Part shown: one piece after another, positions 26,046 to 60,136 of the stretch | How positions within the stretch are numbered: the stretch's first letter is position 1 | Layout of the letters: the number at the start of each line of letters is the position of its first letter | Source: Aquilaria yunnanensis | Lineage: Eukaryota > Streptophyta > Magnoliopsida > Malvales > Thymelaeaceae | NCBI GenBank assembly: GCA_039654915.1 | Contig: CM077595.1 | Coordinates: forward strand, 89,879,501 to 89,943,500 | DNA: 64,000 nucleotides | Direction of reading: 5' to 3' | Made by a program: the position numbers and the translations under genes | The notes under the pieces: generated by a model | The model's input: the letters and a program-made list of their open reading frames with translations, nothing else | The model's database searches: none | Told to the model about the DNA's origin: nothing

Positions 26046-26455
26046 ATCCCAAATTCATTGCTTTTGTCTTATGTCATATGTTTCTATTTACTGAATTCGT
26101 TACCAACAATTTTGAAACTCTTGAATGTTTTTAAAATCTTTGAATCGATCAATGATTTAGCTTGAATTCATAACTTTTTAAAAATATTTTTCTATAAATG
26201 TAAGTATGAAAAATTAGTATTTTTGTTTATCAACTTACAACGTAGTATGGGCCAATCACTAGTTTTCATTTATTTATCAAACTTTTCTCAATTATGCACG
26301 ATTAGCAACTAAGTACATAATTGAAAATCAACGAGCTCCAAACTAAAGCTACAAATACTTTTAGAATATTAGAATAATATTATTAAAGCTACAAATACTT
26401 TTATAAAAGTAACTTAACGAAGAAAATGTGGCAGGAAATAATTGAATTTTTAGGT

Positions 26456-35186: not shown

Positions 35187-35499
35187 AGCAACTTGGGGTA
35201 AATTACACCCGCTACCCCCAACCTTTAATTGTTGTCTCACTTCTAACCCTAATCTTCACTTTGTTCATTCCATATCCCTACCTCAATAAAATGTTTCATT
35301 TTGGCTCCCTTTTGGACGGAAATAGTTATCTCAGACGGAAAAAGCCACGTCAGTAGATTACTCATGGGAAAAATGCTTGTTTTAACCCTTATAAAAATCC
35401 CCTTTTGTAAAAAAAGCCTTAAAAATTTTAAATCTAACAAAAATTCAAGCAAACCTCTCTTATCTCTCATCCCTCTCCGGCGGCGCCATATTCGGCCTT

Positions 35500-35823
35500 T
35501 TCATCCAAGGGATTGAGGATAACATCAGCATAGGAGGGAGGCTCAATGCAAGAGTTGTTGTCAGAACCGTTAAGGTCTCGGTACGCAGACGGTGCGAGGA
35601 GTGGATGAGAATCGATGGGCGTAACGATGATTGGCGGCGAGAGCGGGTGATGTGAGGCGTCCGCAAATGACAAAATGGCATTCCGGTAATTGGAGTAGGA
35701 GCGGTTGCTTTGATTTCTATTGATGGTGCGATCGGAGGTCTCATCGAGCACGAGGCTCTCCAGTTCCTCACCGGAAGCGTAGAGGTGGGCTTCATCGAAG
35801 CCCTGTTTCTCGGAGCCCATCAT
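35500..35823 (-). pseudogene. Captured 5' coding fragment of a sorting nexin 2 (SNX2) gene
   Basis: The minus-strand frame starting at 35,823 begins MMGSEKQGFDEAHLYASGEE, continues with SNRSYSNYRNAI and HHPLSPPIIVTPIDSHPLLA, and ends with IEPPSYADVI. This is the N-terminal, pre-PX part of plant sorting nexin 2 as I recall it. Family proteins continue into PX and BAR-like domains of several hundred residues; here similarity stops near 35,500 and the frame ends at 35,467 in the element's inverted repeat. About 108 residues remain. The sequence just upstream of the ATG resembles captured 5' UTR. It lies wholly between the MULE terminal repeats, so it is a transduplicated fragment, not a functional nexin. 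It could still be transcribed. Confidence 0.75.
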
Positions 35824-35979
35824 CTTGAACCGAATCGAAATCAATCGAGAGACTAAGAGTTGAATAAAATCAAGAGGAAGCCGAATCGGAGGCAATGATG
35901 GAGGGGAAGAAGCGGGGATGGGTGAGTGGATGGGTGAGCGACGGGGGAAAGGGAAGCCAAATCAAGAGAAAGCCAAATT

Positions 35980-41198: not shown

Positions 41199-43804
41199 CA
41201 ACATGTTGACACCCAATTTCGTCCGGGTGTTTTAAAATTTTGAAAAAATTTTATTAAAAAAAAATTAATTTAAAGAAAAAAATATTACTATTATTATTAA
41301 AAAAATTTAATTAGTTTAAAATATATTTTTGTTTTGTGAAAATTTGATTTAAAATGATATATGTGTGAATATGTGTATGTTTGAAATAAAATAAAATTTC
41401 ATGAAAAAAATGACAAAAAATTAAAAGTTTGAGGTAAAAATGATAAAATTGAGAAGTTTCGGGAAAAATTGACAAATTCTAAAAGTTTCAGGAGCATTTG
41501 GTAGTTTGTCACATAAAATTTTGGGCCTGCCGACGTTTCTGGCGCAAATTGACAGAAAACGACAAAATTGTCAAAATCAGAAGCTTCAGGAACTTATCCA
41601 GAGGCTGAGAGACGTAAAGGACTAAAATTGTCATTTTACCAATTTAAAAGATAAGTTTGAAATTTTTTATTAATTTATCCATCAACATTTCAGCCAAACT
41701 TCCTCTATAAATAGCCCCCCAAATTTTGTGCTGAACACAGAGAAAAATAGAAAGAAAAGCTTAGAGCTCCGTTTTTAAAATAGAAAAAATTACAGCCTTA
41801 GTCCCTAGCTCTCCTTCCTTTCCTCATAAAATCTCAAAACTTTTCATTTTGACGATTAAGCCATCTTCTTCCCCCCCGTCGCGCGCCCTCTGTTTACATT
41901 TCTCAGAATTCAGAATTTAAAATCAAGGGTACAACTCTCATTTAATCCTTCATCTTTTCAATTTCTTTCACTTTGGTCACTAACTTTGTATTTTATTCTT
42001 GCAGAATTAATTACTAACCCTTTTAATTTTTACTTGTTTGTTTATTATTTTTTTATTACTAACCCCTTTTTTTATTGTTGTTATTAACTTACTAACAACT
42101 AACTTTTAATACTATTATTGTTACTAACCTTTTAATTTTTTCATTATTACTAACTTTTATAATTGTTGTTAACAATTAATTAACTTTTATTATTGTTGTT
42201 AATTAATTAATTTAATTAACTTGGCTAACTTTTATTATTGTTGTTAATTAATTAATTTAATTAACTTGGCTAGCTTTTTATTATTGTTGTTAATTAATTA
42301 ATTTAATTAATTTGGCTAACTTTTTATTTATTGTTGTTAATTAATTTAATTAATTTGGCTAACTTTTTATTTATTGTTGTTAATTAATTTAATTAATTTG
42401 GCTAACTTTTTATTATTGTTGTTAATTAATTAATTTAATTAACTTGGCTAACTTTTTACTGTTGTTAATTAATTAATTTAATTAACTTGGCTAACTTTTT
42501 ATTATTGTTGTTAATTAATTAATTTAATTAACTTGACTAACTTTTTATTATTGTTGTTTAACAATTAATTTAATTAACTTTGCTAACATTTATTATTATT
42601 GTTAAAGTGGATGGCCAAAAAGCCCCACTTTATTATTATTATTTTTTTTTTCTTTATATAATTTTTTTATTTAATTCACCTTTACCCTTTACTAATTATT
42701 AAATAAATGAAAATTAAAAGAAGATTATTTTGTAATTAATTATTAAGGCTAATAAAAATTATTTTTAAAAAAGCCAATTATTTTTATTTTTATATACATG
42801 TTTTTAATTCTTTAAAGATAACAAAAAGTTAAAATTAATTTTAATAGTTATTTTTATCCAGTAAAAATAATAAAAAAATAAAAATAAAACCTGTTTAAAA
42901 AAAATACATGAAAATTAAGACTTTATATTTTACTGATTTATTTAAAATATAACTTTTAAATCCACTAAAATAATAAATATTTTTCATTAAACAAGAAAAC
43001 AAAAAGAAAATTAAAACAAGATAAGAAAAAGATAAGAAAGACAAGAAAAAGAAAAGAAAAGAAAGATAAGAAAAAGATAAGAAAGATAAGAAAAAGAAAA
43101 GAAAGAAAAGAAAGAAAAGAAAGGAAAGATTAAATCAAAAAGAAAAGAAAAATATAAGAAAGAAAAGAGAGAAAAGAAAAGAAAGAAAATAAAAAATAAA
43201 ATTTTTTTATCTAAAAATTCTATAACAAAAAGAATTACGAATTAGTAATTAAACTAATAATTAATTCCATAAAAGTAATAATTATATAACTAACAATAAA
43301 TTAAATTTAATTTCCATATCCGGATGATCCGGCAGGATCTACGGTTTGGAAAATATCAAACTTTTTAAAATAAATAAATTAAATAAAAAGATAAAAAAAA
43401 TCCATATTTTTACAATATGGATAAAATTGTTTAAAATTTCACCAAATTCCGTGTCCAAATGACTCGGCAGAGTCCATGGTTCGGAATCAAAATCTTCCGT
43501 GTCCAAATGACTCGGCAGAGTCCATGGTTCGGAAGTATAAAATTTTATACAAATTAACTTAAAAATCCACATTTCGACTAATTCAGTTAAAATCTCTAAA
43601 TTAACTGAAAATTATTTAAAAGCAAAGTAAAACAAAATTAAAATCAACTAAGGTGCCAATTTTGGGCGCTATAACAATATTGTTTTAGCGTAACCGTACT
43701 CCCGATCCCCGAACTCTCGCAGACCAATTTTAAGGTGACCAATCGACCTAAGAAAAAAAACTGATTGGTGGCGACTCCAGAAAACCCGACGTTGCCACAC
43801 AACA
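41199..43804 (+). mobile_element. Solo LTR (Ogre/Tat-type) with target-site duplication
   Basis: The LTR spans 41,204-43,799 (2,596 bp), starting TGTTGACACCCAATTTCGTC and ending CCCGACGTTGCCACA. Identical 5-bp flanks CAACA lie at 41,199-41,203 and 43,800-43,804, so the element inserted intact and later lost its interior by LTR-LTR recombination. It contains a TATA box at 41,704-41,713, an AT-rich minisatellite (42,170-42,590), a hairpin near 42,605, a GAAAA-rich tract (43,020-43,195) and a duplicated module holding 'aaatgactcggcagagtcca'. It is the same family as the 15.8-kb element at 44,296 but in the opposite orientation. Confidence 0.9.
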
Positions 43805-44290: not shown

Positions 44291-44295
44291 CCCGT
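44291..44295. repeat. Target-site duplication CCCGT, left copy
   Basis: CCCGT directly precedes the LTR TGTGGCAACG. Its partner is at 60,132-60,136. Confidence 0.9.
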
Positions 44296-46844
44296 TGTGG
44301 CAACGTCGGGTTTTCGGGAGTCGCCACCAATCAGTTTTCTTAGGTCGATTGGTCACCTTAAAATTGGTCTGCGAGAGTTCGGGGATCGGGAGTACGGTTA
44401 CGTTAAAACAACTTTGTTAAAACGCCCAAAAATTGGCACCTTAGTTGATTTTAATTTTGTTTTGCTTTGCTTTTAAATAATTCTCAGTTAATTTTCAAAA
44501 TTAGAAATTTTAACTGGATTAGTCGAAATGTGGATTTTTAAATTAATTAATTTGTATGAAATTTTATACTTCCGAACCATGGACTCTGCCGAGTCATTTG
44601 GACACGGAAGATTTTTGATTCCGAACCATGGACTCTGCCGAGTCATTTGGACACGGAATTTGGTGAACTTTTAAATAATTTAATCCATATTGTAAATATG
44701 GATTTTTATCTTTTTTTTATTTAATTTATTTAATTAAAAGGGTGATATTTTTTTTTAAACCGCAGATCCTGACGGATCATCCGGATATGTAAGTTGATTT
44801 AATTTATAGTTAATTATTTAATTCTTATTTTTATGGAATTAATTATTAGTTTAATTACTAATTCGTAATTCTTTTTGTTATAGAATTTTTAGATTCATTA
44901 ATAATCTAAAAATTTTTATTTTCTATATTTTTCTTTCTTTTCTTTCTTTTCCTTCTTATCTTTCTTATCTTATCTTATCTTTCTTATCTTTATTATCTTT
45001 TTCTTATCTTTCTTATCTTTTTCTTATCATGTTTTAATTTTCTTTTTGTTTTCTTGTTTAATGAAAAATATTTATTATTTTAGTGGATTTAAAAGTTATA
45101 TTTTAAATAAATCAGTAAAATATAAAGTCTTAATTTTCATGTATTTTTTTAAACAGGTTTTATTTTTATTTTTTTATTATTTTTACTGGATAAAAATAAC
45201 TATTAAAATTAATTTTAACTTTTTGCTATCTTTAAAGAATTAAAAACATGTATGTAAAAATAAAAATAATTGGCTTTTTTTAAAAATAATTTTTATTAGC
45301 CTTAATAATTAATTACAAAATAATCTTCTTTTAATTTTCATTTATTTATTAATTAGTAAAGGGTAAAGGTGAATTAAATAAAAAATTATATAAAGAAAAA
45401 AAATTAATAATAATAAAGTGGGGCTTTTTGGCCATCCACTTTAAAAATAATAATAAATGTTAGCAAAGTTAATTAAATTAATTGTTAAACAACAATAATA
45501 AAAAGTTAGTCAAGTTAATTAAATTAATTAATTAACCAAAATAATAAAAGTTAGCCAAGTTAATTAAAATAATTAATTAACAACAGTAAAAAGTTAGCCA
45601 AGTTAATTAAATTAATTAATTAACAACAATAATAAAAAGTTAGCCAAATTAATTAAATTAATTAACAACAATAAATAAAAAGTTAGCCAAATTAATTAAA
45701 TTAATTAACAACAATAAATAAAAAGTTAGCCAAATTAATTAAATTAATTAATTAACAACAATAATAAAAAGCTAGCCAAGTTAATTAAATTAATTAATTA
45801 ACAACAATAATAAAAGTTAGCCAAGTTAATTAAATTAATTAATTAACAACAATAATAAAAGTTAATTAATTGTTAACAACAATTATAAAAGTTAGTAATA
45901 ATGCAAAAATTAAAAGGTTAGTAACAATAATAGTATTAAAAGTTAGTTGTTAGTAAGTTAATAACAACAATAAAAAAAGGGGTTAGTAATAAACAAATAA
46001 TAAACAAACAAGTAAAAATTAAAAGGGTTAGTAATTAATTCTGCAAGAATAAAATACAAAGTTAGTGACCAAAGTGAAAGAAATTGAAAAGATGAAGGAT
46101 TAAATGAGAGTTGTACCCTTGATTTTAAATTCTGAATTCTGAGAAATGGAAACAGAGGGCGCGCGAGGGGGGGAGAAGATGGCTTAATCGTCAAAATGAA
46201 AAGTTTTGAGATTTTCTGAGGAAAGGAAGGAGAGCTAGGGACTAAGGCTGTAATTTTTTCTATTTTAAAAACGGAGCTCTAAGCTTTTCTTTCTATTTTT
46301 ATCTGTGTTCAGCACAAAATTTGGGGGGCTATTTATAGAGGAAGTTTAGCTGAACTGTTGATGGATAAATTAATAAAAAATTTCAAACTTATCTCTTAAA
46401 TTGGTAAAATGACAATTTTAGTCCTTTACGTCTCTCAGCCTCAGGATAAGTTCCTGAAGCTTCTGATTTTGACAATTTTGTCGTTTTCTGTCAATTTGAG
46501 CCAAAAACGTCGGCAGGCTCAAAATTTTATGTGATAAACTACCAAATGCTCCTGGAACTTTTAGAATTTGTCAATTTTTTCCGAAACTTCTCAATTTTGT
46601 CATTTTTACCTCAAACTTTTAATTTTTTGTCATTTTTTTCATGAAATTTTATTTTATTTCAAACATACACATATTCACACATATATCATTTTAAATCAAA
46701 TTTTCACAAAACAAAAATATATTTTAAACTAATTAAATTTTTTTTTAATAATAATAGTAATATATATTTTTTTTTAAATTAATTTTTTTTTAATAAAATT
46801 TTTTTCAAAATTTTAAAACACCCGGACGAAATTGGGTGTCAACA
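44296..46844 (-). repeat. 3' LTR of the large element
   Basis: 2,549 bp. In element sense it starts TGTTGACACCCAATTTCGTC at 46,844 and ends TTGCCACA at 44,296. A TATA box CTATAAATAG is at 46,338-46,329. An AT-rich minisatellite occupies about 45,455-45,900, and a hairpin with 'ggctttttggcc' lies at about 45,415-45,442. A pyrimidine tract ('ttcttatctttcttatcttt') lies at 44,930-45,045. The duplicated module 'ggactctgccgagtcatttg' is near 44,580 and 44,628. Short ORFs inside recur identically in the other LTR and are not genes. Confidence 0.93.
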
Positions 46845-46860
46845 GCTGCCCCCCTTTGCA
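46845..46860 (-). promoter_or_regulatory. Polypurine tract of the large element
   Basis: In element sense the sequence reads GCAAAGGGGGGCAGC and abuts the 3' LTR start TGTTGACACC. This is the expected position for plus-strand DNA priming during reverse transcription. Confidence 0.8.
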
Positions 46861-46946
46861 TGCTTCATGGGACATGATGTATGCAAAGTCGTTACCAAAT
46901 TTCGTCCGGCTTAGGTAGGCATTGAGAATGTTCTCGCCGCCCAAAC

Positions 46947-47204
46947 AGTAAGGTTTAAGGAAAGGTCCTTAAAACCTCTAACGATAGGAAAGCTCCTATT
47001 GTTGTAAGATGGACTGATTGATTGATTATTTGTTTGAGGCTAAGGAAAGGTCCTTAGAACCTCTAACGATAGGAAAGCTCCTATCGTTGTAAGATGGACT
47101 GATGGATTGATTGTTTGTTTTAGGTTAAGGAAATGTCCTTAGAACCTCTAACGATAGGAAAGCTCCTATCGTTGTAAGATGGACTGATTGATTGATTATT
47201 TGTT
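46947..47204. repeat. Three 84-bp repeats, each with a 10-bp perfect hairpin
   Basis: Each unit contains AACGATAGGA-AAGC-TCCTATCGTT, a perfect inverted repeat (one mismatch in the first copy), followed by 'gtaagatggactgattgatt'. They lie just inside the polypurine tract in the element's 3' region. Confidence 0.85.
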
Positions 47205-49190
47205 TTCGAGGCAAAGGTTCCATCCTTAAAACCTCGGATTGATTGATTGATCTCGAGGCAAAGGTTCCATCCTTAAAACCCCGGATTGATTGATTGATGT
47301 CGAGGCAAAGGTTCCATCCTTAAAACCTTGAATTGATTGATTGATGTCGAGGCAAAGGTTCCATCCTTAAAACCTCGGATTGATAATTGATCTCGAGGCA
47401 AAGGTTCCATCCTTAAAACCCCGGATTGATTGATTGATCTCGAGGCAAAGGTTCTATCCTTAAAACCTCGGATTGATTGATTGATCTCGAGGCAAAGGTT
47501 CCATCCTTAAAACCCCGGATTGATTGATTGATCTCGAGGCAAAGGTTCTATCCTTAAAACCTCGGATTGATTGATTGATCTCGAGGCAAAGGTTCCATCC
47601 TTAAAACCTCGAATTGATTGATTGATGTCGAGGCAAAGGTTCCATCCTTAAAACCTCGGATTGATAATTGATCTCGAGGCAAAGGTTCCATCCTTAAAAC
47701 CCCGGATTGATTGATTGATCTCGAGGCAAAGGTTCTATCCTTAAAACCTCGGATTGATTGATTGATCTCGAGGCAAAGGTTCCATCCTTAAAACCCCGGA
47801 TTGATTGATTGATCTCGAGGCAAAGGTTCCATCCTTAAAACCTCGAATTGATTGATTGATGTCGAGGTAAAGGTTCCATCCTTAAAGCCTCGAATTGATT
47901 GATTGTTTTCGAGGCAAAGGTTCCATCCTTAAAACCTTGATGATGAAAATTGATTATTTTCGAGGCAAAGGTTCCATCCTTAAAACCCCGATGATGAAAA
48001 TTGATTGTTTTCGAGGCAAAGGTTCCATCCTTAAAACCCCGATGATGAAAATTGATTATTTTTGAGGCAAAAGTTCCATCCTTAAAACCCCGATGTTGAA
48101 AATTGATTGTTTTCGAGGCAAAGGTTCCATCCTTAAAACCCCGATGATGAAAATTGATTATTTTCGAGGCAAAGGTTCCATCCTTAAAACCCCGATGATG
48201 AAAATTGATTATTTTCGAGGCAAGTGTTCCATCCTTAAAACCCCGATGATGAAAATTGATTATTTTCGAGGCAAAGGTTCCATCCTTAAAACCCCGATGA
48301 TGAAAATTGATTGTTTTCGAGGCAAAAGTTCCATCCTTAAAACCCCGATGATGAAAATTGATTATTTTTGAGGCAAAGGTTCCATCCTTAAAACCCCGAT
48401 GATGAAAATTGATTGTTTTCGAGGCAAAGGTTTCATTCTTAAAACCCCGATGATGAAAATTGATTATTTTCGAGGCAAGTGTTCCATCCTTAAAACCCCG
48501 ATGATGAAAATTGATTATTTTCGAGGCAAAGGTTCCATCCTTAAAACCCCGATGATGAAAATTGATTGTTTTCGAGGCAAAAGTTCCATCCTTAAAACCC
48601 CGATGATGAAAATTGATTATTTTTGAGGCAAAGGTTCCATCCTTAAAACCCCGATGATGAAAATTGATTGTTTTCGAGGCAAAGGTTTCATTCTTAAAAC
48701 CCCGATGAAAATTGATTGTTTTCGAGGCAAAGGTTCCATCCTTAAAACCCCGATGATGAAAATTGATTATTTTCGAGGCAAAGGTTCCATCCTTAAAACC
48801 CCGATGATGAAAATTGATTATTTTCGAGGCAAAAGTTCCATCCTTAAAACCCCGATGATGAAAATTGATTGTTTTCGAGGCAAAGGTTCCATCCTTAAAA
48901 CCCCGATGATGAAAATTGATTATTTTCGAGGCAAAGGTTCCATCTTTAAAACCCCGATGATGAAAATTGATTGTTTACGAGGCAAAGGTTCCATCCTTAA
49001 AACCTCGGATTGATTGATTGATGTCGAGGTAAAGGTTCCATCCTTAAAACCTCGATGATGAAAATTGATTATTTTCGAGGCAAAGGTTCCATCCTTAAAA
49101 CCCCGATGATGAAAATTGATTGTTTTCGAGGCAAAGGTTCCATCCTTAAAACCCCGATGATGAAAATTGATTTTGAGGCTAAGGAGCTTT
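47205..49190. repeat. Satellite-like array, 47-bp then 51-bp units, roughly 40 copies
   Basis: The common core is 'cgaggcaaaggttccatcct' followed by 'taaaacc(t/c)cg'. In the first part (to about 47,930) the spacer is GATTGATTGATT-type, giving about 47-bp units. In the second part it is 'atgatgaaaattgattattt', giving about 51-bp units. Because 51 is divisible by three, the second part leaves long frames on the plus strand with a 17-residue repeat. There is no CRISPR relationship: units are contiguous and spacers are not unique. Confidence 0.9.
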
Positions 49191-49718
49191 CCTTAGGACC
49201 TCGAGCGAAATTTATATGAAAGCAATTGAAATTGGAATAATTTTCTTCGAAAGTGTGAATTTTCATAATAGGCGAGCGCAAAGAATTAGGCTTCGATAAA
49301 ACGAGTGAATCTTGATGATGACAATAACACTGACAAATTATGTAAAGGGAACGGATGTTTGGAATCAATATTCAAGGTTCATCTAATATTTTCTTCAGTA
49401 AATATAGATTCCCTTGTGAGATATGTCATCCGAATAAGGTTAAAGCTTAACTACCCCAAAATGTTATGCCTAGTAGACCTAATAGGATGCGTCTCAAGAG
49501 TAATAAAAATTACTCTTTACTCAGCCATTCCATCCTAAAGGCATTGTCCTATGATTTTAATATCAGCATGGACGGAGCTATATTATAAAAAAAGAAATTC
49601 CCTGAAAAGAAAAACTGAAACGCGAAAGAAAATGCTGATAATAAAACTAAAGGACAAGAAAAACGGATCAGATCGCTTCTTTCTTCCACAATACTTCAAC
49701 AGGGTGAGTAGATGACCA
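49191..49718. other. Element interior between satellite and LOG-like gene
   Basis: No further gene seen. It includes the presumed 3' UTR of the minus-strand LOG-like gene. Confidence 0.4.
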
Positions 49719-50348
49719 TTATGGGAGTGAACTGGTCGGGAAAGACTGTCGTGTCCAGTCTATCTGAATCATTGCTGGATCTGGTTCAGGAACAAAAGCT
49801 TGTATTTTATCTAGCAATTCTTCAGCAGTTGTTGCGGATATTATGATTCGCCGTGCCACTCTTGATATGAAATTCTTCTGCATAGCATAATCCATAAAAG
49901 CTATCAGACCTGTAAAGAAATTGTTAACATTTAAAAGCCCAATGGGTTTCTTATGCAAATTAAGTTGGGCCATGGAAGCAATTTGAAAGACTTCTCCCAA
50001 TGTGCCAAAACCACCTGGTAGAGCGATAAAAGCATCAGCATTTAAAAGCATTTGTAACACACGCTCTTGCAAATTTTTAACCACTAATTCTTCTCCAATC
50101 GTGCCCCCAGAAATAAATTTCAGAGGTCCAGGGATAATGCCCAAAACTTGACTTCCTCCTAGAGATGCTGCTGATGCTACACCTCCCATTAATCCGACAC
50201 TACCTCCTCCATAAACTAAATGTATTTTTCGCTCAGCTAATACTCTACCCAAATGGTTGGCTGCTTTTAAATACTCTTCATCTTTTCCAGGAAAAGCCCC
50301 AGAAAATACACAAATACTTCGGGATTTACGAGTTGGGGTTTTCTCCAT
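49719..50348 (-). CDS. LOG-like cytokinin riboside 5'-monophosphate phosphoribohydrolase, intronless, carried by the LTR element
   Basis: LOG enzymes release active cytokinin bases from cytokinin nucleotides, usually in cytosol and nucleus. From Met at 50,348 the frame gives 209 residues, the usual LOG length. It contains SICVFSGAFPGK (11-22), HLVYGGGSVGLMGG (43-56), an Arg at 96 in QERVLQM, and the signature PGGFGTLGE (111-119), the LOG form of PGGxGTxxE. The C-terminal half includes QIASMAQLNLHKKPIGLLNV. Differences from canonical LOGs are FSG for FCG and RVLQM in place of the RKAEM-type motif; the key Arg and Glu are kept. Plant LOG genes commonly have several introns. This one has none, as expected for a retro-captured copy or an intronless LOG-like clade. 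An in-frame Met at 50,435 lies upstream of the TATA box, so 50,348 is preferred. It is intact and probably functional, though activity is untested. Confidence 0.88.
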   Translation of the reverse strand: MEKTPTRKSRSICVFSGAFPGKDEEYLKAANHLGRVLAERKIHLVYGGGSVGLMGGVASAASLGGSQVLGIIPGPLKFISGGTIGEELVVKNLQERVLQMLLNADAFIALPGGFGTLGEVFQIASMAQLNLHKKPIGLLNVNNFFTGLIAFMDYAMQKNFISRVARRIIISATTAEELLDKIQAFVPEPDPAMIQIDWTRQSFPTSSLP

Positions 50349-50375
50349 TCCTATCCTTACCCTTGTGAGAAAAGA

Positions 50376-50396
50376 GGATATATTTATAGAGATGAA
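50376..50396 (-). promoter_or_regulatory. TATA-type promoter motif of the LOG-like gene
   Basis: Element-strand CTTCATCTCTATAAATATA lies about 33 bp before the LOG start codon. It shares TTCATCNCTATAAAT with the promoters of two Cys4 genes. A start site about 30 bp downstream implies a very short leader. Confidence 0.6.
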
Positions 50397-50427
50397 GAGA
50401 TAAGGCAATAATTTTATTTTCAAGAAT

Positions 50428-50832
50428 GGATACATTATTGCCAGCTATTCACAGTAGTCACGAGTATGACTCTGGTCAGGTATGGGTACACTATCGTTAA
50501 AAGAGGAGGAAAATTTTCAAAATAGCTGCTAGCATGTACAGTAGTCACTACTGTAGCTTACGTCAGGAGTAGGTACGTGATTGTTGGAAGAGAAGGAAAA
50601 TTTTAAAAAGTGGCAGCTAGCATGTACAGTATCGTGACTATGGCTCATGTCAGGAGTGGATACATTATCGCTGAAAGGGGAGGAAGATTTCAAAAGTGAC
50701 AGCTAGCACGTACAGTAATCGTGACTTTGGTTCACGTCAGGAGTGGATACATTATTACCAAAAGGGGAGGAAAATTTCCAAAAGCTACAGCTAGCACGTA
50801 CAGTAATCGTGACTTTGATCCTCGTCTTTCAC
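50428..50832 (-). repeat. Upstream cassette repeated four to five times (about 88-bp unit)
   Basis: The unit contains 'cagctagcacgtacagtaat', 'cgtgact(t/a)tggttcacgtc', 'aggagtgga' and 'tacattatt' plus a GGGGAGGAAAATTT stretch. It lies between the LOG promoter and the third Cys4 gene. Single diverged copies occur upstream of the other genes, at about 51,515-51,600 and 52,300-52,395. It therefore looks like the ancestral spacer/promoter module of this gene array, locally amplified in front of LOG. Copies include CACGTC/ACGT cores of the kind bound by plant bZIP factors. Confidence 0.8.
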
Positions 50833-50865
50833 TGGCTTTGCGTCCAGTAATGGCTTCAATGCTTT

Positions 50866-51414
50866 CTATGAATCGGTGATTTGCATCCCATCCAGTTTTC
50901 TCACAAACTGGCAAACTGGGTCGTTTAAAGTCAGATTCCCAAGACTATAACGATCTCGTTCTTTTTGGAAAATTATCCATAATCCAACAACCTCAAATTG
51001 CACTATTCCGCAAGAATGCGCTTCAAGAACCTCTCGAATATCTTCCAGAGATTCCTTACGCAAGCCATTCTTGATGAATTTTATTCTATCATTACGATTT
51101 CTGGTGATCACTCCTGGAGAACGACATTTATTGCCGCAAATCCACCATCCACAATTATGACAAACGCCTAGCCTCTTTGCTCTTCTTTTTTTGGCATAAG
51201 CGCTTTTACCAAAGCCGGACATACGGGGAAAGAACGCTTCGGGAACTTCACCAGCTGAACGAACCTTAGCTTCAATTAGCCACCGCACATTATCAGGGAT
51301 GCCTTTGTGCATAAATACTCTGAATCGTTCACATCTAGCTTGATAAATCTTTTTAAGAACATTTATTGGGAAGGAAGGAAAATACTTTCGTAAGGCGGAA
51401 AAAGAAGACTCCAT
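50866..51414 (-). CDS. Cys4 basic protein, betaflexivirus NABP-like, copy 3 (182 aa)
   Basis: It is intronless and intact. I chose Met at 51,414 because MESSFSALRKYF then aligns with the other two copies; a Met five codons upstream is in frame. A helical N-terminal part (1-60, containing HKGIPDNVRWLIEAKVRS) is followed by a strongly basic GKSAYAKKRRAKRL (69-82), a Cys4 cluster CHNCGWWICGNKC (C85, C88, C93, C97), then ITRNRNDRIKFIKNGL and a conserved tail with DPVCQFVRKLDG. The G(K/R)S-x-(Y/F)AK(K/R)RRA core, the Cys cluster and the following I-x-x-N/H...(F)I/V-x-x-G block match the layout of carlavirus and vitivirus nucleic-acid-binding proteins, several of which suppress RNA silencing (from memory, not searched). 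Nucleic-acid binding and nuclear entry are inferred. Confidence 0.8.
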   Translation of the reverse strand: MESSFSALRKYFPSFPINVLKKIYQARCERFRVFMHKGIPDNVRWLIEAKVRSAGEVPEAFFPRMSGFGKSAYAKKRRAKRLGVCHNCGWWICGNKCRSPGVITRNRNDRIKFIKNGLRKESLEDIREVLEAHSCGIVQFEVVGLWIIFQKERDRYSLGNLTLNDPVCQFVRKLDGMQITDS

Positions 51415-51467
51415 TGATGAAGGAGGCAAAGAAAGAAATTAGTGATTGTAGGAAACGAAAATAACTA

Positions 51468-51488
51468 ACACATATTTATAGTGATGAA
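51468..51488 (-). promoter_or_regulatory. TATA-type promoter motif of Cys4 copy 3
   Basis: Element-strand CTTTCATCACTATAAATATG, about 59 bp before the start codon. It shares TTCATCNCTATAAAT with the LOG-like gene and Cys4 copy 2. Confidence 0.6.
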
Positions 51489-51630
51489 AGGGATAATGCG
51501 TTAATTACACTTACAGAAGCAAGTACATTATTGTCAAAAGAAAAGACAAATGACAGCTTATATGTACAGGAATCATGACCGTGGCTCTCATCTTCCACTG
51601 ATTTATGTCCAGTAATGGCTTCAATGCCTT

Positions 51631-52179
51631 CTATAAATCAGGTATTTGCTTCCCATCCAGTTTTCTTACAAACTGACAAACAGGGTCGTTTAAAGTCACA
51701 TTCCCAAGACTGTAACGATCTTGTTCTTTTTGGAAAGTCCACCATAAATCCATAATTTCCCATTGCACTATTTCACAAGAATGTGTTTCAAAAGTTAATA
51801 GGATATCATCCAAAGATTCCTTACGCAGGCCATTCTTGATGAATTTTCTTTTATCTTCATGATTTCTGGAGATGTATCCTAAAAAGCGACATTTAGTATT
51901 ACAATTCCATCGTCCACATTTATGACAGACACCTAGCCTCTTTGCTCTTCGCTTTTTAGCATAAGCGCTTTTACCAAAGCCGGGCATACGGGGAAAGAAC
52001 GCTTCTGGAACTTCACCAGCTGAACGAACCTTAGCTTCAATTAGCCACCGCACATTATCAGGAATGCCTTTGTGCATAAAAACTCTGATTCTTTCACATC
52101 TAGCAAGGTAGATCTTTTTAAGGACTTTTATTGGAAGAGAAGGAAAGTATTTTCGCAGGGTAGAAAGAGTAGAATCCAT
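51631..52179 (-). CDS. Cys4 basic protein, betaflexivirus NABP-like, copy 2 (182 aa)
   Basis: Intact, intronless, begins MDSTLSTLRKYFPSLPIKVL. The basic stretch GKSAYAKKRRAKRL is at 69-82 and the cluster CHKCGRWNCNTKC has cysteines 85, 88, 93 and 97 (C-x2-C-x4-C-x3-C). These are followed by ISRNHEDKRKFIKNGL and a C-terminal tail ending near DPVCQFVRKLDGKQI. It is highly similar to copies 1 and 3 over its full length, with most differences at 98-150. Copy starts are spaced 765 and 797 bp apart, so the array arose by tandem duplication of a gene-plus-promoter unit. Three uninterrupted frames with the same four cysteines suggest the protein has been kept functional. Similarity to betaflexivirus proteins covers only the middle (about 69-117); the flanking parts are not recognised. 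Confidence 0.82.
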   Translation of the reverse strand: MDSTLSTLRKYFPSLPIKVLKKIYLARCERIRVFMHKGIPDNVRWLIEAKVRSAGEVPEAFFPRMPGFGKSAYAKKRRAKRLGVCHKCGRWNCNTKCRFLGYISRNHEDKRKFIKNGLRKESLDDILLTFETHSCEIVQWEIMDLWWTFQKEQDRYSLGNVTLNDPVCQFVRKLDGKQIPDL

Positions 52180-52252
52180 TGATGAGAGAAGAATTTGAGA
52201 GATGATGGAAAGGAATTAGTTATTGAAGGAAACTTAGATAACCGACTGGAAG

Positions 52253-52273
52253 AACATGCATTTATAGCGATGA
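52253..52273 (-). promoter_or_regulatory. TATA-type promoter motif of Cys4 copy 2
   Basis: Element-strand ATTTCATCGCTATAAATGCA, about 80 bp before the start codon, the third instance of TTCATCNCTATAAAT. Confidence 0.6.
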
Positions 52274-52427
52274 AATGGATAACGTGTCGATTACACTTAG
52301 GAGAGCATGTACATCTGTCAAAAGAAAATGCAAACTTTTCCAAATATAACAAACTGTATGTACAGTAATTGTGACTGTGGCTCACATCTTCCACTGGTTT
52401 TACGTCCAGTAACGGCATTAACGGCTT

Positions 52428-52976
52428 CTATGAGTCGAGGATTTGCTTCCCATCCAGTTTTCTTACAAGCTGGCAAACAGGGTCATTTACAGTCAGATTT
52501 TCGAGACTGTAACGGTTTCGTTCTTCATGAAAAATGCTCCATAAACCAAGAAGTTCACGTTGCACAGATCCACAAGAATGCGTCTCAAGAGTCAATTGGA
52601 TATCATCCAACGAGTCCTTACTCAGGCCATTCTTAATGAATCGTATTTTATCTTCTCGATTATCAGAGATCATCCTTAAAGAACGACATTTAGTATTACA
52701 AGTCCACCGTCCACATTTATGGCAGACTTGTAACCTTTTCGCTCTTCGCTTTTTGGCATAAGAGCTTTTGCCTATACCAGGCATGTGAGACACAAATGCC
52801 TCTGGGATTTCACCTTCCAGACGAACCTTGGCTTCGATTAACCACCGCACATCTTCAGGGATTCCTTTGTGCATCAGAACTCTTAATCGTTCACAGCGAA
52901 CTTGGTAGATCTTTTTGAGAATGTTCATTGGGAGAGAAGGAAAATATTTTCGTAAGACAGAAAGAGTAAGATCCAT
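52428..52976 (-). CDS. Cys4 basic protein, betaflexivirus NABP-like, copy 1 (182 aa)
   Basis: First gene of the array in element sense. It is intact, intronless and begins MDLTLSVLRKYFPSLPMNIL. The basic stretch is GKSSYAKKRRAKRL (69-82) and the cluster CHKCGRWTCNTKC uses the same four Cys positions. It then reads MISDNREDKIRFIKNGL and ends VRKLDGKQILDS. It is the most divergent copy (for example EDVRWLIEAKVRLEGEI in the N-terminal part). Unlike the two downstream copies it has no TTCATCNCTATAAAT motif before its ATG; the region reads 'cccataataactg' instead, so it may depend on transcription from the LTR. A zinc-binding RNA- or DNA-binding role is inferred from the cysteine cluster and basic stretch. 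Antisense ORFs over this gene are shadows. Confidence 0.8.
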   Translation of the reverse strand: MDLTLSVLRKYFPSLPMNILKKIYQVRCERLRVLMHKGIPEDVRWLIEAKVRLEGEIPEAFVSHMPGIGKSSYAKKRRAKRLQVCHKCGRWTCNTKCRSLRMISDNREDKIRFIKNGLSKDSLDDIQLTLETHSCGSVQRELLGLWSIFHEERNRYSLENLTVNDPVCQLVRKLDGKQILDS

Positions 52977-53039
52977 TTTCTAGAGGGAAGTAAAAGAAAG
53001 AAAGGGTGAAGGAATCAGTTATTATGGGCAACTGAGAAA

Positions 53040-53640
53040 ACCGACTTGAGAGTCACGGAGTACCGTATCCGCCGTTTAACCGGAAAAGTGGATCCTACTT
53101 CATTTTGATAGATTTTTTTTTTATCCGTTGATCCAGTCCTCGATTATTGAATCCATTGTCCGCTTTTAACAAAGTTTCAACGACAATATTTCTTGATGTC
53201 TGCCTTATCTTTGACCACAACTATCTCTTATCTTGGATGCTGCTAAGCTGGCATCAATCCTGTCCTTCCAGGTGTAGCCTCGATTATTGAATCAATTGCC
53301 AAGCTTTTGACAATATTGTCTACTTTATCCTTTTTGATATCTGCCTTATCCTTGGCTATAGCTATCTCTTATTTTGGATACTACTAGCTGATGTCAATCC
53401 TGTCCTTCCAGGTGTAGTCTCGATTATTGAATCAATTGCCAGGCTTTTGACATATTGTCTACCTTATCCTTGAATTCCTGATGCGGGTTGGTCCCGCATA
53501 TTAGCTGTGTATCCAGTGATAGATTGGTAAGAGCTGATATTATTGAGATCTCAGCTTATACTGCTGTAACGGTGCGGTGGATGTGTTTCCCATTTGATTC
53601 CTATCGTGTAAAAATCATGCATGCATGATGTGAAATGCAT
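53040..53640. repeat. Element interior with direct repeats of about 125 bp
   Basis: 'caatcctgtccttccaggtg' plus 'tcgattattgaatcaattgc' recurs at about 53,258-53,310 and 53,396-53,450, and a partial copy lies near 53,135. 'tgtctgccttatctttga' and 'tatctgccttatccttgg' precede them. No gene is seen. Confidence 0.7.
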
Positions 53641-55500
53641 GAATGCAAAGCATGTGTAATTGATGGTTCTTTTTTTTTTTTATTTTTTTTTTATATTTAT
53701 TTTTTTATTTTTTATTTTTTTTGGATTGATCTAGTTCTTCATATCTTTGCTTTACTGGATCCTCTTTATAATTGCCTTCTTGGACTATCATTGAATCTCT
53801 TTATGCTTTCCAGCTTTTGTTCACTGCCTCAAAAGCCCAACTTTTTTCAAAATCCCCTTTCTTTGACTTGTTCTTGAATTTTGGCCTCAATTTCTTTAAA
53901 GTTGGCCCGCCTCATAATTTATATCTCTTTCGGGTACTCATCCATTGTCATGGATTTGATACCATCAAAGGCTTTACTTTCAATGTCTGCTTTGCCCATT
54001 TTCTTCTGGCCGTGCCGACACTTGTTTACCCACATGTTACAGTCCGAATGATTGCTCTTCCTTAGACTCAGGTTCTGATCCATAAGACTTGCCCCCTTGT
54101 CTATTGAGCTTCTTTCTTGGCAGTACTTTTCTTGCGCTTAGTAGAGACTACTTTGCCCCCTTGATTATGGTGTTTATGTGAAAAGAGATATCATCTCGCC
54201 TTTGATTTAACAGAAGGTTGAGGATTTCTAGACCTTTGTGATGGCACTTGATCGTAAATTTCTCTTACAAGAACCACATCTTATTAAAGAAAGACTCAAG
54301 CTATCTCCTTACTTTTAAGTCTACATACATTAATGAATAATGGTTTGGCCTTAAAGAAAAACTTTCATCAATTTTCAAAGCTTGACAAAGTAATTTACGG
54401 TCTTTGTTTTCAATTAAAATGTCCTGTCATTCTTCCCTTTCCAACTCGAAGACATAAACTGTGCAAGGCAATAAGGTAGAAACATGATTCACAATAATAG
54501 CCTTTTAATTGAATGAGGATGATATCGAGAGGTAAATGTTAGGTGTGAGGAAAGTTAAGTTTGAATGTTTTTTTTTTTTGTGGCAGTCTTTTAGCTGAAT
54601 GAGAATGATATTAAGAGGTAAATATTAGGTCTGAATAAAGTTAAGTTTGAGTGGTGTGAAAGAAGGGTCTTTTAATACTACTCGTGAGCAAATTTGATTA
54701 TGGTGAAAAACTCAATAGTGATGACCTCAAACTTGCCCCTCTTTCCAGAAAGTTAGACCTCATCTGTTGCCCCCCAACTATTGTGATCTTTATGCATGCT
54801 TGGTTTGAGGGTTGCTTTTGTGTTCTAAACCGCCTTTGCAGGTTTTCAGTCTAGAATCCATAGCTCACTTTTTTTTCTTTTTTCTTTTTTTTTTTTTCTA
54901 GTTTGAGCCCTTTTTCCTCTTTTTTTTTTTTGTTTTTTTGTTTTTTTGTGTGAGCTATGGTGATAACATACTTGATAACTCTCTTGAAGTGAGATGACTC
55001 AAGTGGCCTTGCTTGCTCGTGCTTGTTCTCAGTTCTTTTTGGTTTTGAATTTTCCCTTGTTGGCTTTTTGGTGGAAGGGATGAACTTTTTCCTTTTTTTT
55101 TTTGGAGTTTGTGTTATGGAGAACCGAGATCATAGCCTTCTTGAAGTAAGATGACTCAAGTGGCTTTATTTGCTTCTCAGTCTCTTTTTTTTTTTGGATT
55201 TTTTTTTTCTTGTTTGGATTTTCTCTTTAATGGCTTTTGATGGAAGGGAGGAACTTCTTTCCTTTGTTGGAATTTGTGTTGTGGAAAACTGAGAATTTTT
55301 TTTTTGTATTGAGCATTTGTGAGAATTGGGAGGCCACTGAAGTCATTTAATATGAGAGCTAACTTCTTTGGAAGTTAATCCCGGACTCCTTGCAAGGATG
55401 TTGATAACCACTGTGAATTCTTTTTTAGGGTTGAGGTGCAACATATGAAATCTTTCTTACTAGATTTGGCAGCACTTTTAAGATCATTACTATCAAATTT
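53641..55500. other. Low-complexity element interior (purine-rich on the element strand)
   Basis: Long T-rich runs on the plus strand occur at 53,668-53,722, 54,549-54,580, 54,870-54,950 and 55,180-55,215. Direct repeats at 54,510-54,660 share 'gaggtaaatgttaggt' and 'aagttaagtttga'. Minus-strand translation around 53,940-54,300 gives short protein-like pieces (KADIESKAFDGIKSMTMDEY; VREIYDQVPSQRSRNPQ) broken by stops. They may be relics of retroelement coding sequence, but I cannot assign them. Confidence 0.4.
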
Positions 55501-55880
55501 CCCTTAACTTTTTATTTTCACCCACGAGTAGTATCGTTTTCAAAGTAAAGTGTGATAGCAATAATGGATAGTATAATGGAAAGGAGTGAGAGATGGATAT
55601 AAAAATGGAATTTTGGTAAGAAGTGGTAGAATGTGTAGGTGTAATAATTGAATTTTTGGTAAAAATTGGTAGAATGTGTAGAAGTAATAATGGGATTAAA
55701 AAGTGGTAGAATGCACACGCAACATCTTTTTCTTAGAGAACAAAAAGAATTACCGGTTGTCGAAAAGTAAAGTGTGATGGCAATAATGGATAGTATAATG
55801 GCAAAGAGTGTAAAAATGGAAAGTAGTAGAATGCACGCATTACATCTTTTTGTTGTACCAGAAAAAGAATACCAGGTGTC
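55500..55880. repeat. Degenerate direct repeats in the element interior
   Basis: 'aagtgtgatagcaataatgg' plus 'atagtataatgg' occurs near 55,546 and, with 'ggcaataatgg', near 55,773. 'tggtagaatg' phrases recur between. The minus-strand ORF of 121 codons is built from these repeats and is not a credible gene. Confidence 0.55.
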
Positions 55881-55899
55881 CATCTAACAAAGACTACAC

Positions 55900-56430
55900 C
55901 CTAGATTCTGGACTAAATCTAGGAGATTTTTACTATTAAATTACTTTTGCAAGCTTTCAAAGATACAAGTTTATTCAAAGGATTCCCTGTCATTCAAAAG
56001 TGTGTGCGGACTGTTAGGTCAGATCTGACTTGGAGCCCTTCCAAAATTAATGTAATTCCAGCTGAAAATCTTCACTTTCAATTACCAATCACATCGGGCC
56101 TAGCAACTTGGACTCGACCAACTGTTGGACCTTGAGTTTCAGTACCACAGAATTTTCAATTACATTTGGGATTTTGGTCACATCAACTTGAAAGAGAAGG
56201 TCACTTGGCCTTTGCTACCGTTGATATGGATGATAGCAGAATGACTTCTTCAGTAAAGACTGTGATTAACTATCCTTCAAAAATGAACTTCATTTTTTGG
56301 TGTAATGAGGAGGGAATTGCTCCGACCATACTTTCTGTCTTGGACTCTATATCTATAAGATGTCCTTCGGTTTGTTCTGCCATTAATCTTGTTTGGAACC
56401 GAGTTGAATATCGGTGTTGAGGTCCAATTT
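55900..56430 (-). pseudogene. Relic of a Ty3/gypsy gag-pro region (protease part), decayed
   Basis: Minus-strand translation at about 56,240-56,420 gives TEGHLIDIESKTESMVGAIP, SSLHQKMKFIFEG and then, after a stop, LITVFTEEVIL. The 'PSSLHQK-KF---G-L--V-(A/G)EE' pattern is what I recall from the protease region of plant Ogre/Tat elements. It is broken by stops and frame changes, and no reverse transcriptase or integrase follows. It indicates that this gene-carrying element descends from a coding Ty3/gypsy element. Confidence 0.45.
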
Positions 56431-56464
56431 TACCCTTTTTAAAGTAAGATTCATTTTATTAACT

Positions 56465-56835
56465 TTACATGTACTTGATTGATGTAATGGATGCATGCAA
56501 TACAAAATGAGATTATGTTTTTATCTGACTTTGTATGCATGTGATTGATGTAATGGATGCATGCAATACAAAATGAGATTATGTTTTTATCTAACTTTGT
56601 ATGTACGTGATTAATGTAATGGATGTATGCAATACAAAATGAGATTATTTTTTTATCTGACTTTGTATGTACGTGATTAATGTAATGGATGTATGCAATA
56701 CAAAATGAGATTATGTTTTTATCTAACTTTGTATGTACGTGATTAATGTAATGGATGTATGCAATACAAAATGAGATTATGTTTTTATCAAATTTTGTAT
56801 GTACGTGATTAATGTAAGGGATGTATGCATTGAGT
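56465..56835. repeat. Tandem repeat, 66-bp unit, five to six copies
   Basis: The unit reads 'tgtaatggatgcatgcaata' then 'caaaatgagattatgttttt' then 'atctaactttgtatgtacgt' then 'gattaa'. Copies differ by a few bases. The array lies in the 5' leader half of the element. Confidence 0.9.
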
Positions 56836-56999
56836 GAGTTTGATTATCCACTATCGTGGGACTTCAAAACTTTTAGTTGTCATTATAAAAAACAAAAGTT
56901 ATTATAGTTTGATGCGTGGTTTTGATGCATGAAGAATAATTGCACAAAACAGAAGTATAACAAAAGAAAGATAAGTTTATTAATAACTTAAATAGCAAT

Positions 57000-57556
57000 T
57001 AACAACTCATGAAGTATTATGGAAAAATGAGTTAAAACCATAAATACGAAAATAAAAGTGTAGAGCAACAACACAGCATAACAAGGATATGCTTATGGCG
57101 TTGGTAAATGGGAGGAATACTATGGTCAGTTCTATGGTTAAGTGGGGAGTTCTATATGCATAAGGTGGCTTATCAAAAAGGCAAGGGATAGTTCCCGAAT
57201 CCCGTCACTAAATTATAGTGACGGCCCGATTCCTTACCCTCTAGGGTTTATGTAAGGAATGGATTAATTCGAGTCGTAGCTTTTCGTGGGCCCATGCAGA
57301 GACTAACCGTCTCAGAAGGCAATACACTACTTTGCTACTTTGAAACCGGTGAAGGCTTGGAGACCATGGCCTCACAAGGACAACAACACCAATTCCGCTT
57401 AGAAAGAATCGTGTTCGATTTAAGTAAGCTCGGGTATAGAGCTTCATATTGTGAATGCATAATGCATGTTTTCGCTAAGTAAATATAGCATATAAAAATC
57501 CACATAATAAGCAAAGTAAATTAAAACAAATCAACTTTAGGCTCGACTCACTAACA
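57000..57556 (-). other. Element 5' leader
   Basis: Region between primer-binding site and tandem repeats. It has no family-recognisable gene; the 68-codon minus frame at 57,447-57,241 lacks motifs. A strong hairpin lies within (separate entry). Confidence 0.4.
57198..57229. other. Perfect hairpin in the element leader
   Basis: CCGTCACTA at 57,202-57,210 and TAGTGACGG at 57,216-57,224 form a 9-bp stem with loop AATTA, and an outer GAATC/GATTC pair extends it. In a retroelement leader this could serve RNA dimerisation or packaging; that is inference from position only. Confidence 0.6.
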
Positions 57557-57579
57557 TCGAGTCCCCAGTGGAGTCGCCA
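57557..57579 (-). promoter_or_regulatory. Primer-binding site complementary to a tRNA 3' end
   Basis: Element-strand TGGCGACTCCACTGGGGACT starts three bases after the 5' LTR end (CA). TGG pairs with the CCA tail, and the following bases have the form of acceptor-stem plus T-arm complement. I recall this type of site, for tRNA-Arg, from Ogre/Tat elements; the exact tRNA should be confirmed. Confidence 0.8.
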
Positions 57580-57582
57580 AGC

Positions 57583-60131
57583 TGTGGCAACGTCGGGTTT
57601 TCGGGAGTCGCCACCAATCAGTTTTCTTAGGTCGATTGGTCACCTTAAAATTGGTCTGCGAGAGTTCGGGGATCGGGAGTACGGTTACGTTAAAACAACT
57701 TTGTTAAAACGCCCAAAAATTGGCACCTTAGTTGATTTTAATTTTGTTTTGCTTTGCTTTTAAATAATTCTCAGTTAATTTTCAAAATTAGAAATTTTAA
57801 CTGGATTAGTCGAAATGTGGATTTTTAAATTAATTAATTTGTATGAAATTTTATACTTCCGAACCATGGACTCTGCCGAGTCATTTGGACACGGAAGATT
57901 TTTGATTCCGAACCATGGACTCTGCCGAGTCATTTGGACACGGAATTTGGTGAACTTTTAAATAATTTAATCCATATTGTAAATATGGATTTTTATCTTT
58001 TTTTTATTTAATTTATTTAATTAAAAGGGTGATATTTTTTTTTAAACCGCAGATCCTGACGGATCATCCGGATATGTAAGTTGATTTAATTTATAGTTAA
58101 TTATTTAATTCTTATTTTTATGGAATTAATTATTAGTTTAATTACTAATTCGTAATTCTTTTTGTTATAGAATTTTTAGATTCATTAATAATCTAAAAAT
58201 TTTTATTTTCTATATTTTTCTTTCTTTTCTTTCTTTTCCTTCTTATCTTTCTTATCTTATCTTATCTTTCTTATCTTTATTATCTTTTTCTTATCTTTCT
58301 TATCTTTTTCTTATCATGTTTTAATTTTCTTTTTGTTTTCTTGTTTAATGAAAAATATTTATTATTTTAGTGGATTTAAAAGTTATATTTTAAATAAATC
58401 AGTAAAATATAAAGTCTTAATTTTCATGTATTTTTTTAAACAGGTTTTATTTTTATTTTTTTATTATTTTTACTGGATAAAAATAACTATTAAAATTAAT
58501 TTTAACTTTTTGCTATCTTTAAAGAATTAAAAACATGTATGTAAAAATAAAAATAATTGGCTTTTTTTAAAAATAATTTTTATTAGCCTTAATAATTAAT
58601 TACAAAATAATCTTCTTTTAATTTTCATTTATTTATTAATTAGTAAAGGGTAAAGGTGAATTAAATAAAAAATTATATAAAGAAAAAAAATTAATAATAA
58701 TAAAGTGGGGCTTTTTGGCCATCCACTTTAAAAATAATAATAAATGTTAGCAAAGTTAATTAAATTAATTGTTAAACAACAATAATAAAAAGTTAGTCAA
58801 GTTAATTAAATTAATTAATTAACCAAAATAATAAAAGTTAGCCAAGTTAATTAAAATAATTAATTAACAACAGTAAAAAGTTAGCCAAGTTAATTAAATT
58901 AATTAATTAACAACAATAATAAAAAGTTAGCCAAATTAATTAAATTAATTAACAACAATAAATAAAAAGTTAGCCAAATTAATTAAATTAATTAACAACA
59001 ATAAATAAAAAGTTAGCCAAATTAATTAAATTAATTAATTAACAACAATAATAAAAAGCTAGCCAAGTTAATTAAATTAATTAATTAACAACAATAATAA
59101 AAGTTAGCCAAGTTAATTAAATTAATTAATTAACAACAATAATAAAAGTTAATTAATTGTTAACAACAATTATAAAAGTTAGTAATAATGCAAAAATTAA
59201 AAGGTTAGTAACAATAATAGTATTAAAAGTTAGTTGTTAGTAAGTTAATAACAACAATAAAAAAAGGGGTTAGTAATAAACAAATAATAAACAAACAAGT
59301 AAAAATTAAAAGGGTTAGTAATTAATTCTGCAAGAATAAAATACAAAGTTAGTGACCAAAGTGAAAGAAATTGAAAAGATGAAGGATTAAATGAGAGTTG
59401 TACCCTTGATTTTAAATTCTGAATTCTGAGAAATGGAAACAGAGGGCGCGCGAGGGGGGGAGAAGATGGCTTAATCGTCAAAATGAAAAGTTTTGAGATT
59501 TTCTGAGGAAAGGAAGGAGAGCTAGGGACTAAGGCTGTAATTTTTTCTATTTTAAAAACGGAGCTCTAAGCTTTTCTTTCTATTTTTATCTGTGTTCAGC
59601 ACAAAATTTGGGGGGCTATTTATAGAGGAAGTTTAGCTGAACTGTTGATGGATAAATTAATAAAAAATTTCAAACTTATCTCTTAAATTGGTAAAATGAC
59701 AATTTTAGTCCTTTACGTCTCTCAGCCTCAGGATAAGTTCCTGAAGCTTCTGATTTTGACAATTTTGTCGTTTTCTGTCAATTTGAGCCAAAAACGTCGG
59801 CAGGCTCAAAATTTTATGTGATAAACTACCAAATGCTCCTGGAACTTTTAGAATTTGTCAATTTTTTCCGAAACTTCTCAATTTTGTCATTTTTACCTCA
59901 AACTTTTAATTTTTTGTCATTTTTTTCATGAAATTTTATTTTATTTCAAACATACACATATTCACACATATATCATTTTAAATCAAATTTTCACAAAACA
60001 AAAATATATTTTAAACTAATTAAATTTTTTTTTAATAATAATAGTAATATATATTTTTTTTTAAATTAATTTTTTTTTAATAAAATTTTTTTCAAAATTT
60101 TAAAACACCCGGACGAAATTGGGTGTCAACA
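57583..60131 (-). repeat. 5' LTR of the large element
   Basis: Sequence-identical partner of the LTR at 44,296-46,844 as far as I compared. The promoter TATA box in element sense is at 59,625-59,616, about 506 bp into the LTR, so genomic transcription of the element would begin near 59,590 and run toward lower coordinates through the carried genes. Confidence 0.93.
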
Positions 60132-60136
60132 CCCGT
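60132..60136. repeat. Target-site duplication CCCGT, right copy
   Basis: CCCGT directly follows the LTR end TGTCAACA and matches 44,291-44,295 perfectly. Confidence 0.9.

Follow-up and report, generated by a model that had tools for sequence, protein, structure and literature searches.

Closest described systems

Most elements of the Ogre/Tat/Athila (OTA) superclade of Ty3/Gypsy retrotransposons are described as having extra open reading frames (ORFs) and large non-coding regions (PMC6317226). The element considered here, bounded by long terminal repeats (LTRs), occupies positions 44296 to 60131 of a 64,000-nucleotide stretch of Aquilaria yunnanensis DNA (contig CM077595.1, positions 89,879,501 to 89,943,500; hereafter the window). 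It carries a gene like LONELY GUY (LOG), which encodes a cytokinin-releasing enzyme, and three tandem copies of a gene like those for the nucleic-acid-binding proteins (NABPs), or cysteine-rich proteins (CRPs), of flexiviruses. We think it probable that this LTR element is young and non-autonomous, belongs most likely to the OTA superclade, and arose as a deletion derivative that has lost gag-pol and has kept its accessory genes and tandem-repeat region.

The YgdH domain, which is shared with LOG, has been reported in Gypsy LTR elements of Citrus sinensis and C. clementina, and in a Gypsy consensus of Populus trichocarpa only with that study's filter off (PMC9289625); the same article cites an earlier report, Steinbauerova et al. 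2011. Thus, LOG in a Gypsy element was already known, and the claim of a preliminary description of this DNA, that no element with such content had been described, was too strong. What the Citrus and Populus elements share with the present one is a LOG-type domain carried by a Gypsy LTR element of plants. Their consensuses, however, were found through their reverse transcriptase (RT), while no RT is recognisable here, and the account of them in section 12 of PMC9289625 does not mention an NABP-type domain, of which there are three copies here.

Other plant elements are comparable in part. The LTRs of Ogre, at 1.9-6.5 kb (PMC6431247), span the 2,549 bp found here. Ogre/Tat elements also have extra ORFs, as here, and a primer-binding site (PBS) antisense to tRNA-Arg (PMC9289625), a type to which the present site may belong. 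They differ in that gag-pol and the plant mobile domain were not found here (35 of 45 pieces scanned), and in that the accessory genes are of another kind. In Retand elements, the region from pol to the 3' LTR, which is comparable to one here, contains accessory ORFs as well as tandem arrays, and some families are without gag, protease, or RNase H and integrase domains (PMC11963269). Their accessory ORFs, described as mostly antisense and with TRP28, and their LTRs of 315-1,194 bp (PMC11963269) contrast with sense genes for NABP and LOG and LTRs of 2,549 bp. In large retrotransposon derivatives (LARDs), DNA between two LTRs stands in for coding sequence and moves in trans (PMC6431247); here, by contrast, the genes in the interior are open, and purifying selection acts on one family of them.

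The CRPs/NABPs of carla-, allexi- and mandariviruses are alike in that their Pfam families match above cut-off and in having a basic motif beside a zinc finger. The proteins here, whose function is putative, differ from them in being retrotransposon-encoded, 182 residues long and present in three tandem copies. Gypsy elements of Phalaenopsis with an ORF for an AlkB-type RNA demethylase (PMC9289625) are similar in that they carry a fixed extra ORF with a domain known from flexiviruses as well; unlike the present element, they have another domain and retain gag and pol. A Betaflexiviridae replicase-like insertion is known from cucumber (PMC3136472), in an article whose available text does not contain the term "nucleic acid binding", and the available text of PMC7264820 mentions neither cytokinin, YgdH nor carlavirus. 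No report of Carla_C4/Viral_NABP-type genes in plant retrotransposons was found among titles and the starts of abstracts, with most subscription journals outside reach; PF01623 is mentioned once in two papers on plant gene families. The combination of three maintained NABP copies beside LOG, with no recognisable gag-pol, is apparently new.

Boundaries and content of the element

The features of the element are as follows, in order along the forward strand.

44291..44295, no strand: target-site duplication CCCGT, left (sequence)
44296..46844, minus: 3' LTR, 2,549 bp (100% identity to 57583-60131)
46849..46857, minus: putative polypurine tract (PPT) AAAGGGGGG, 4 bp from the LTR (short, plausible only)
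46955..47206, no strand: 85-bp tandem repeat, 3 copies (repeat analysis)
47200..49172, no strand: 51-bp tandem repeat, ~40 copies, near the 3' LTR (repeat analysis)
49719..50435, minus: LOG-like ORF, 238 aa (PF03641 1.8e-30; PDB 2a33 9e-52; alignment)
50475..50817, no strand: 87-bp tandem repeat, 3.9 copies, between LOG and NABP copy 1 (repeat analysis)
50866..51414, minus: NABP/CRP-like copy 1 (N1), 182 aa (PF05515 2e-05, PF01623 1.8e-04, both above cut-off)
51631..52179, minus: NABP/CRP-like copy 2 (N2), 182 aa (PF01623 3.7e-06, PF05515 3.8e-06, above cut-off)
52428..52976, minus: NABP/CRP-like copy 3 (N3), 182 aa (PF05515 2.1e-08, PF01623 5.3e-06, above cut-off)
52990..57561, minus: no recognised coding domain, ~4.6 kb, at the expected gag-pol position (Pfam scans)
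56454..56829, no strand: 66-bp tandem repeat, 5.7 copies (repeat analysis)
57562..57579, minus: PBS-like TGGCGACTCCACTGGGGA (sequence; putative tRNA-Arg type)
57583..60131, minus: 5' LTR, 2,549 bp (identity to the other LTR)
60132..60136, no strand: target-site duplication CCCGT, right (sequence)

The two LTRs form a pair of direct repeats in the same orientation, begin with TG, end with CA and are 100% identical. They are flanked on both sides by CCCGT, a perfect 5-bp target-site duplication for which the chance expectation is ~0.0018 at the base composition of the window (AT-rich, with a GC content of 32%). Read on the minus strand, the sequence past the right LTR is a GCT spacer and then the PBS-like site, whose TGG lies 3 bp from the LTR and which may be of the tRNA-Arg type; no tRNA for comparison occurs in the window. 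The position of this site next to the right LTR shows that the minus strand is the one on which the element reads. The preliminary description, which had reported paired 2,549-bp LTRs with a perfect duplication, is borne out as to a single-insertion LTR element; of the PBS and PPT that it listed, the former stands as a PBS-like site and the latter is a short purine run, 4 bp ahead of the left LTR, that is only plausible.

Because the LTRs are identical, the insertion appears young. If substitutions are assumed to accumulate at 1.3e-8 to 2.5e-9 per site per year, 0 differences in 2,549 sites set an upper 95% bound of ~45,000 to 235,000 years on its age, although gene conversion or assembly collapse would also explain the identity. 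It is very improbable that ordinary plant LOG and NABP-like genes came by chance to lie between LTRs of separate insertions. Pieces of same-family LTRs do lie close by (41204-43799 and 26449-29880), which would suit such an origin, but the identity of the two LTRs, their single orientation and the matching 5-bp duplication argue against it, as do a PBS-like site at the correct edge and four uninterrupted genes on the element strand.

From 5' to 3', the element consists of ~4.6 kb free of recognised domains, NABP copies 3, 2 and 1, LOG, the 51-bp array, the short 85-bp array and the 3' LTR. The four ORFs, that is, LOG and the three NABP-like genes, are all uninterrupted and lie on the element strand, as the claim of four intact, intronless genes on the transcription strand had it. 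The claimed absence of gag-pol likewise held in what was scanned. The internal region has 45 stop-to-stop pieces of 60 residues or more; in the 35 that were scanned, Pfam detected no gag or pol domain, RT included, and nothing but LOG and the NABPs exceeded a curated cut-off. Scores under the cut-off, such as that of the repeat piece at 56454-56843, were taken as chance. The internal region has no other match within the window at E <= 1e-10.

Two further pieces were considered and set aside. A minus-strand open piece at 56273-56455 may resemble the linker between protease and RT in Tat-type pol; Pfam gave nothing for it at E <= 10, and a pol relic is not claimed. A 121-residue ORF at 55518-55883 is probably not a gene, because it has no Pfam match and overlaps a 43-bp repeat.

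The NABP-like genes

Each of the three tandem copies matches two flexivirus nucleic-acid-binding families, Viral_NABP and Carla_C4, above their curated cut-offs, in agreement with the virus-like, three-copy family of the preliminary description. Among 66 aligned NABPs, the three window copies counted, 60 match Viral_NABP and 57 match Carla_C4 at E <= 0.001. All three window copies contain the basic run KKRRAKR and, three residues on, a C-x2-C-x4-C-x3-C finger. The relatives considered here are the best 120 of 222 matches; a basic run followed by a C4 finger is present in 97 of these 120, and the finger itself in 105. Flexivirus CRPs are also described as having a basic motif adjoining a zinc finger, and viral CRPs as suppressing silencing, with one acting as a transcription factor that induces hyperplasia (PMC12172455). 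The NABPs of the element would probably work as viral silencing suppressors do, or as transcription factors.

The three copies are under purifying selection. The ratio Ka/Ks (omega, Nei-Gojobori) is 0.29 for N1-N2, 0.23 for N1-N3 and 0.25 for N2-N3, with upper 95% limits of 0.47, 0.36 and 0.38, respectively. In a simulation with 80 random changes per copy, only 2.75% remain open; between the real copies, 89-132 of 549 sites are different. Furthermore, N3 groups in a tree with record P0001 (support 100/91) and N1 with record P0007 (100/98), and N2 falls outside the N1-P0007 pair; these two records may come from another species or be further copies in the same species. By this topology, the NABP gene had already been duplicated when the window copies and the other sequenced copies diverged. 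A recent capture of the NABP gene by this one element is unlikely for that reason, and the duplication together with the purifying selection indicates that the NABPs are an inherited gene set.

The same evidence bears on the idea of a one-off capture, in which a gag-pol-free element recently acquired both a LOG transcript from the host and a virus gene that had been endogenised, the combination having neither history nor function. A single LTR-bounded copy has been read, its insertion is young (0/2,549 LTR differences) and its LOG gene appears relaxed, all of which such a capture would explain. It would not account for the age of the NABP duplication or for omega values of 0.23-0.29, nor for the LOG domain in Gypsy consensuses of Citrus and poplar (PMC9289625) or the NABP and LOG source sequences of equal length among longer contigs (see below). 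We therefore regard it as improbable.

The few NABP relatives with a named source are all from plants: Populus alba, P. x canadensis, Xanthoceras sorbifolium and three Orobanche species. These records favour another origin, in which the NABPs are an old zinc-finger family of plants or transposons and flexiviruses acquired the gene from plants or retrotransposons, an origin that is compatible with a deletion derivative of the OTA superclade. We consider it rather unlikely, given that its basis is the best 120 of 222 matches, compared without viral proteins, and that the Pfam match spans ~85 residues; because the match is so short, even common descent of the plant and viral NABPs is uncertain. 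Scans of viral contigs and of genome contigs with an NABP returned no relatives.

The LOG-like gene

The LOG-like ORF matches the Pfam family Lysine_decarbox (LOG family) and Arabidopsis At2g37210, the protein of PDB entry 2a33. Plant LOG genes have introns, and the uninterrupted LOG of the element suggests passage through RNA. Residue 30 is Met in 150 of 153 aligned LOG proteins, the window copy counted, so translation probably starts there (~50348), to give a product of 209 rather than 238 residues. Thus, the LOG gene of the preliminary description stands as a family member, but its start is probably internal and its C-terminus departs from those of its relatives.

The sequence PGGxGTxxE and the preceding Arg (R125), which we presume to be the LOG motif, are retained. 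The Lys that follows the Arg in 2a33 is Val in the window copy, which also departs from the >=90% consensus at seven positions past residue 30 (47, 55, 147, 155, 160, 211 and 234). A C-terminal LxLxL tail is missing from it, as from its best match, P0121. Because conserved sites are changed and the tail is lost, its enzyme activity is doubtful, and with it the hormone activation that had been attributed to this copy.

The LOG relatives comprise the best 120 of 7,423 matches (E <= 0.001) and 40 added from a search with P0141, 160 in all (P0121-P0280). LxLxL lies within the last 14 residues of 127 of these, with a basic run ahead of it in 117; elsewhere in the same proteins it occurs in 11 of 30,874 stretches of 14 residues. 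The 127 are not independent events, since the relatives share descent and were picked by similarity. The tail is EAR-like, since LxLxL has the form of an EAR repression motif. It is also absent from P0123 of Thalictrum, judged to be a host-type LOG, and from 32 others of the 160, some of which are shortened or joined gene models. Four Xanthoceras gene models (P0122, P0124, P0125 and P0126) fuse two LOG-like domains, perhaps through annotation that spans neighbouring copies.

Named sources among the 160 include Reevesia pubescens, Paulownia, Populus, Diplodiscus, Melia and Pterospermum. Among the matches listed, LOG relatives are found at many loci in some eudicots, and those of R. pubescens are at many loci on many numbered chromosomes; a Pterospermum cluster has 327 member sequences, a cluster size that is not a copy number. 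A scan of viral contigs with a LOG relative returned no relatives. Some close relatives carry plant-gene annotations, namely LOGL10 of Populus trichocarpa and of P. nigra, and counts of the LOG gene family may for this reason be inflated by transposon copies.

Proposed lineage, linkage and function

The element has the large non-coding regions and extra ORFs that are a feature of the OTA superclade, in which accessory genes and tandem repeats often sit between pol and the 3' LTR. As a deletion derivative of that superclade, it would be transcribed from its LTR promoter, and a related autonomous element would supply the gag-pol proteins that copy and insert the RNA. The NABPs, through their basic run resembling a nuclear localisation signal and their C4 zinc finger, would bind nucleic acid and might help the family to evade silencing, change host transcription, or both, as flexivirus CRPs do. 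The LOG protein would formerly have released active cytokinin and so favoured dividing cells, where new insertions are heritable; in this copy its function is probably decaying. Together, NABP and LOG could push the host cell to one state, dividing and less silenced.

Six lengths of source contigs are common to the NABP and LOG tables (905, 1006, 1386, 2128, 4511 and 8723). Of the 120 NABP rows, 111 entered this comparison, as did 80 of the 160 LOG rows; the others belong to chromosome-sized or long scaffolds, apart from one NABP row for which no length is given. For the three pairs above 2 kb, a null in which lengths were jittered by up to 5% gives a mean of 0.16 (P ~0.0005), and the source database agrees within each pair (ena for 8723 and 2128, jgi for 4511). 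With size limits of >1500, >2000 and >4000, P is 0.022, 0.0005 and 0.0002. These matches, among the longer contigs only, hint that NABP and LOG are neighbours in other plants too.

A number of points weigh against this picture. The suggested adjacency comes from equal sequence lengths and not from reading the sequences; without a size limit, the six pairs do not differ significantly from the null (mean 3.4, P 0.12), and the limits were picked after the tables were seen. The LTR-gene combination is known here from one LTR-bounded copy, in which the LOG consensus positions are altered and the LxLxL tail is gone. Ten internal pieces, one minus-strand repeat piece and nine plus-strand pieces, lay outside the Pfam scan. 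Since no RT was found, the lineage is assigned from the putative PBS type, the LTR length and the repeats only. Finally, Steinbauerova et al. (2011) reportedly described two Athila-like elements that resembled LOGL4, which would favour Athila and speak against an Ogre-type PBS.

A wider proposal can be made only tentatively, and it may well be wrong. A plant Gypsy lineage across eudicots might carry a two-part module for host manipulation, made up of flexivirus-type NABPs for counter-defence or transcription and a cytokinin-releasing LOG whose LxLxL, EAR-like tail possibly recruits co-repressors. Derivatives free of gag-pol would keep this module as moving cargo, and the NABP gene would have passed between RNA viruses and retrotransposons. 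If this is confirmed, retrotransposons would be shown to carry the same class of protein by which plant RNA viruses counter host silencing, next to an enzyme of hormone activation, and the role of extra ORFs in plant Gypsy elements would become directly testable. The findings suggest that such elements may carry tools of host manipulation.

Neighbouring sequences

A solo LTR of the same family, inverted and 93% identical, lies at 41204-43799, ~0.5 kb from the element, and has its own duplication, CAACA. Diverged pieces of same-family LTRs, with 77-88% identity to the LTR and in both orientations, occupy 26449-29880 and are perhaps a rearranged or nested remnant. By eye, open pieces at 18709-20690 on the minus strand resemble a gene for a NAC transcription factor, and an open piece at 35470-35961, also on the minus strand, resembles the beginning of a gene for plant sorting nexin 2.

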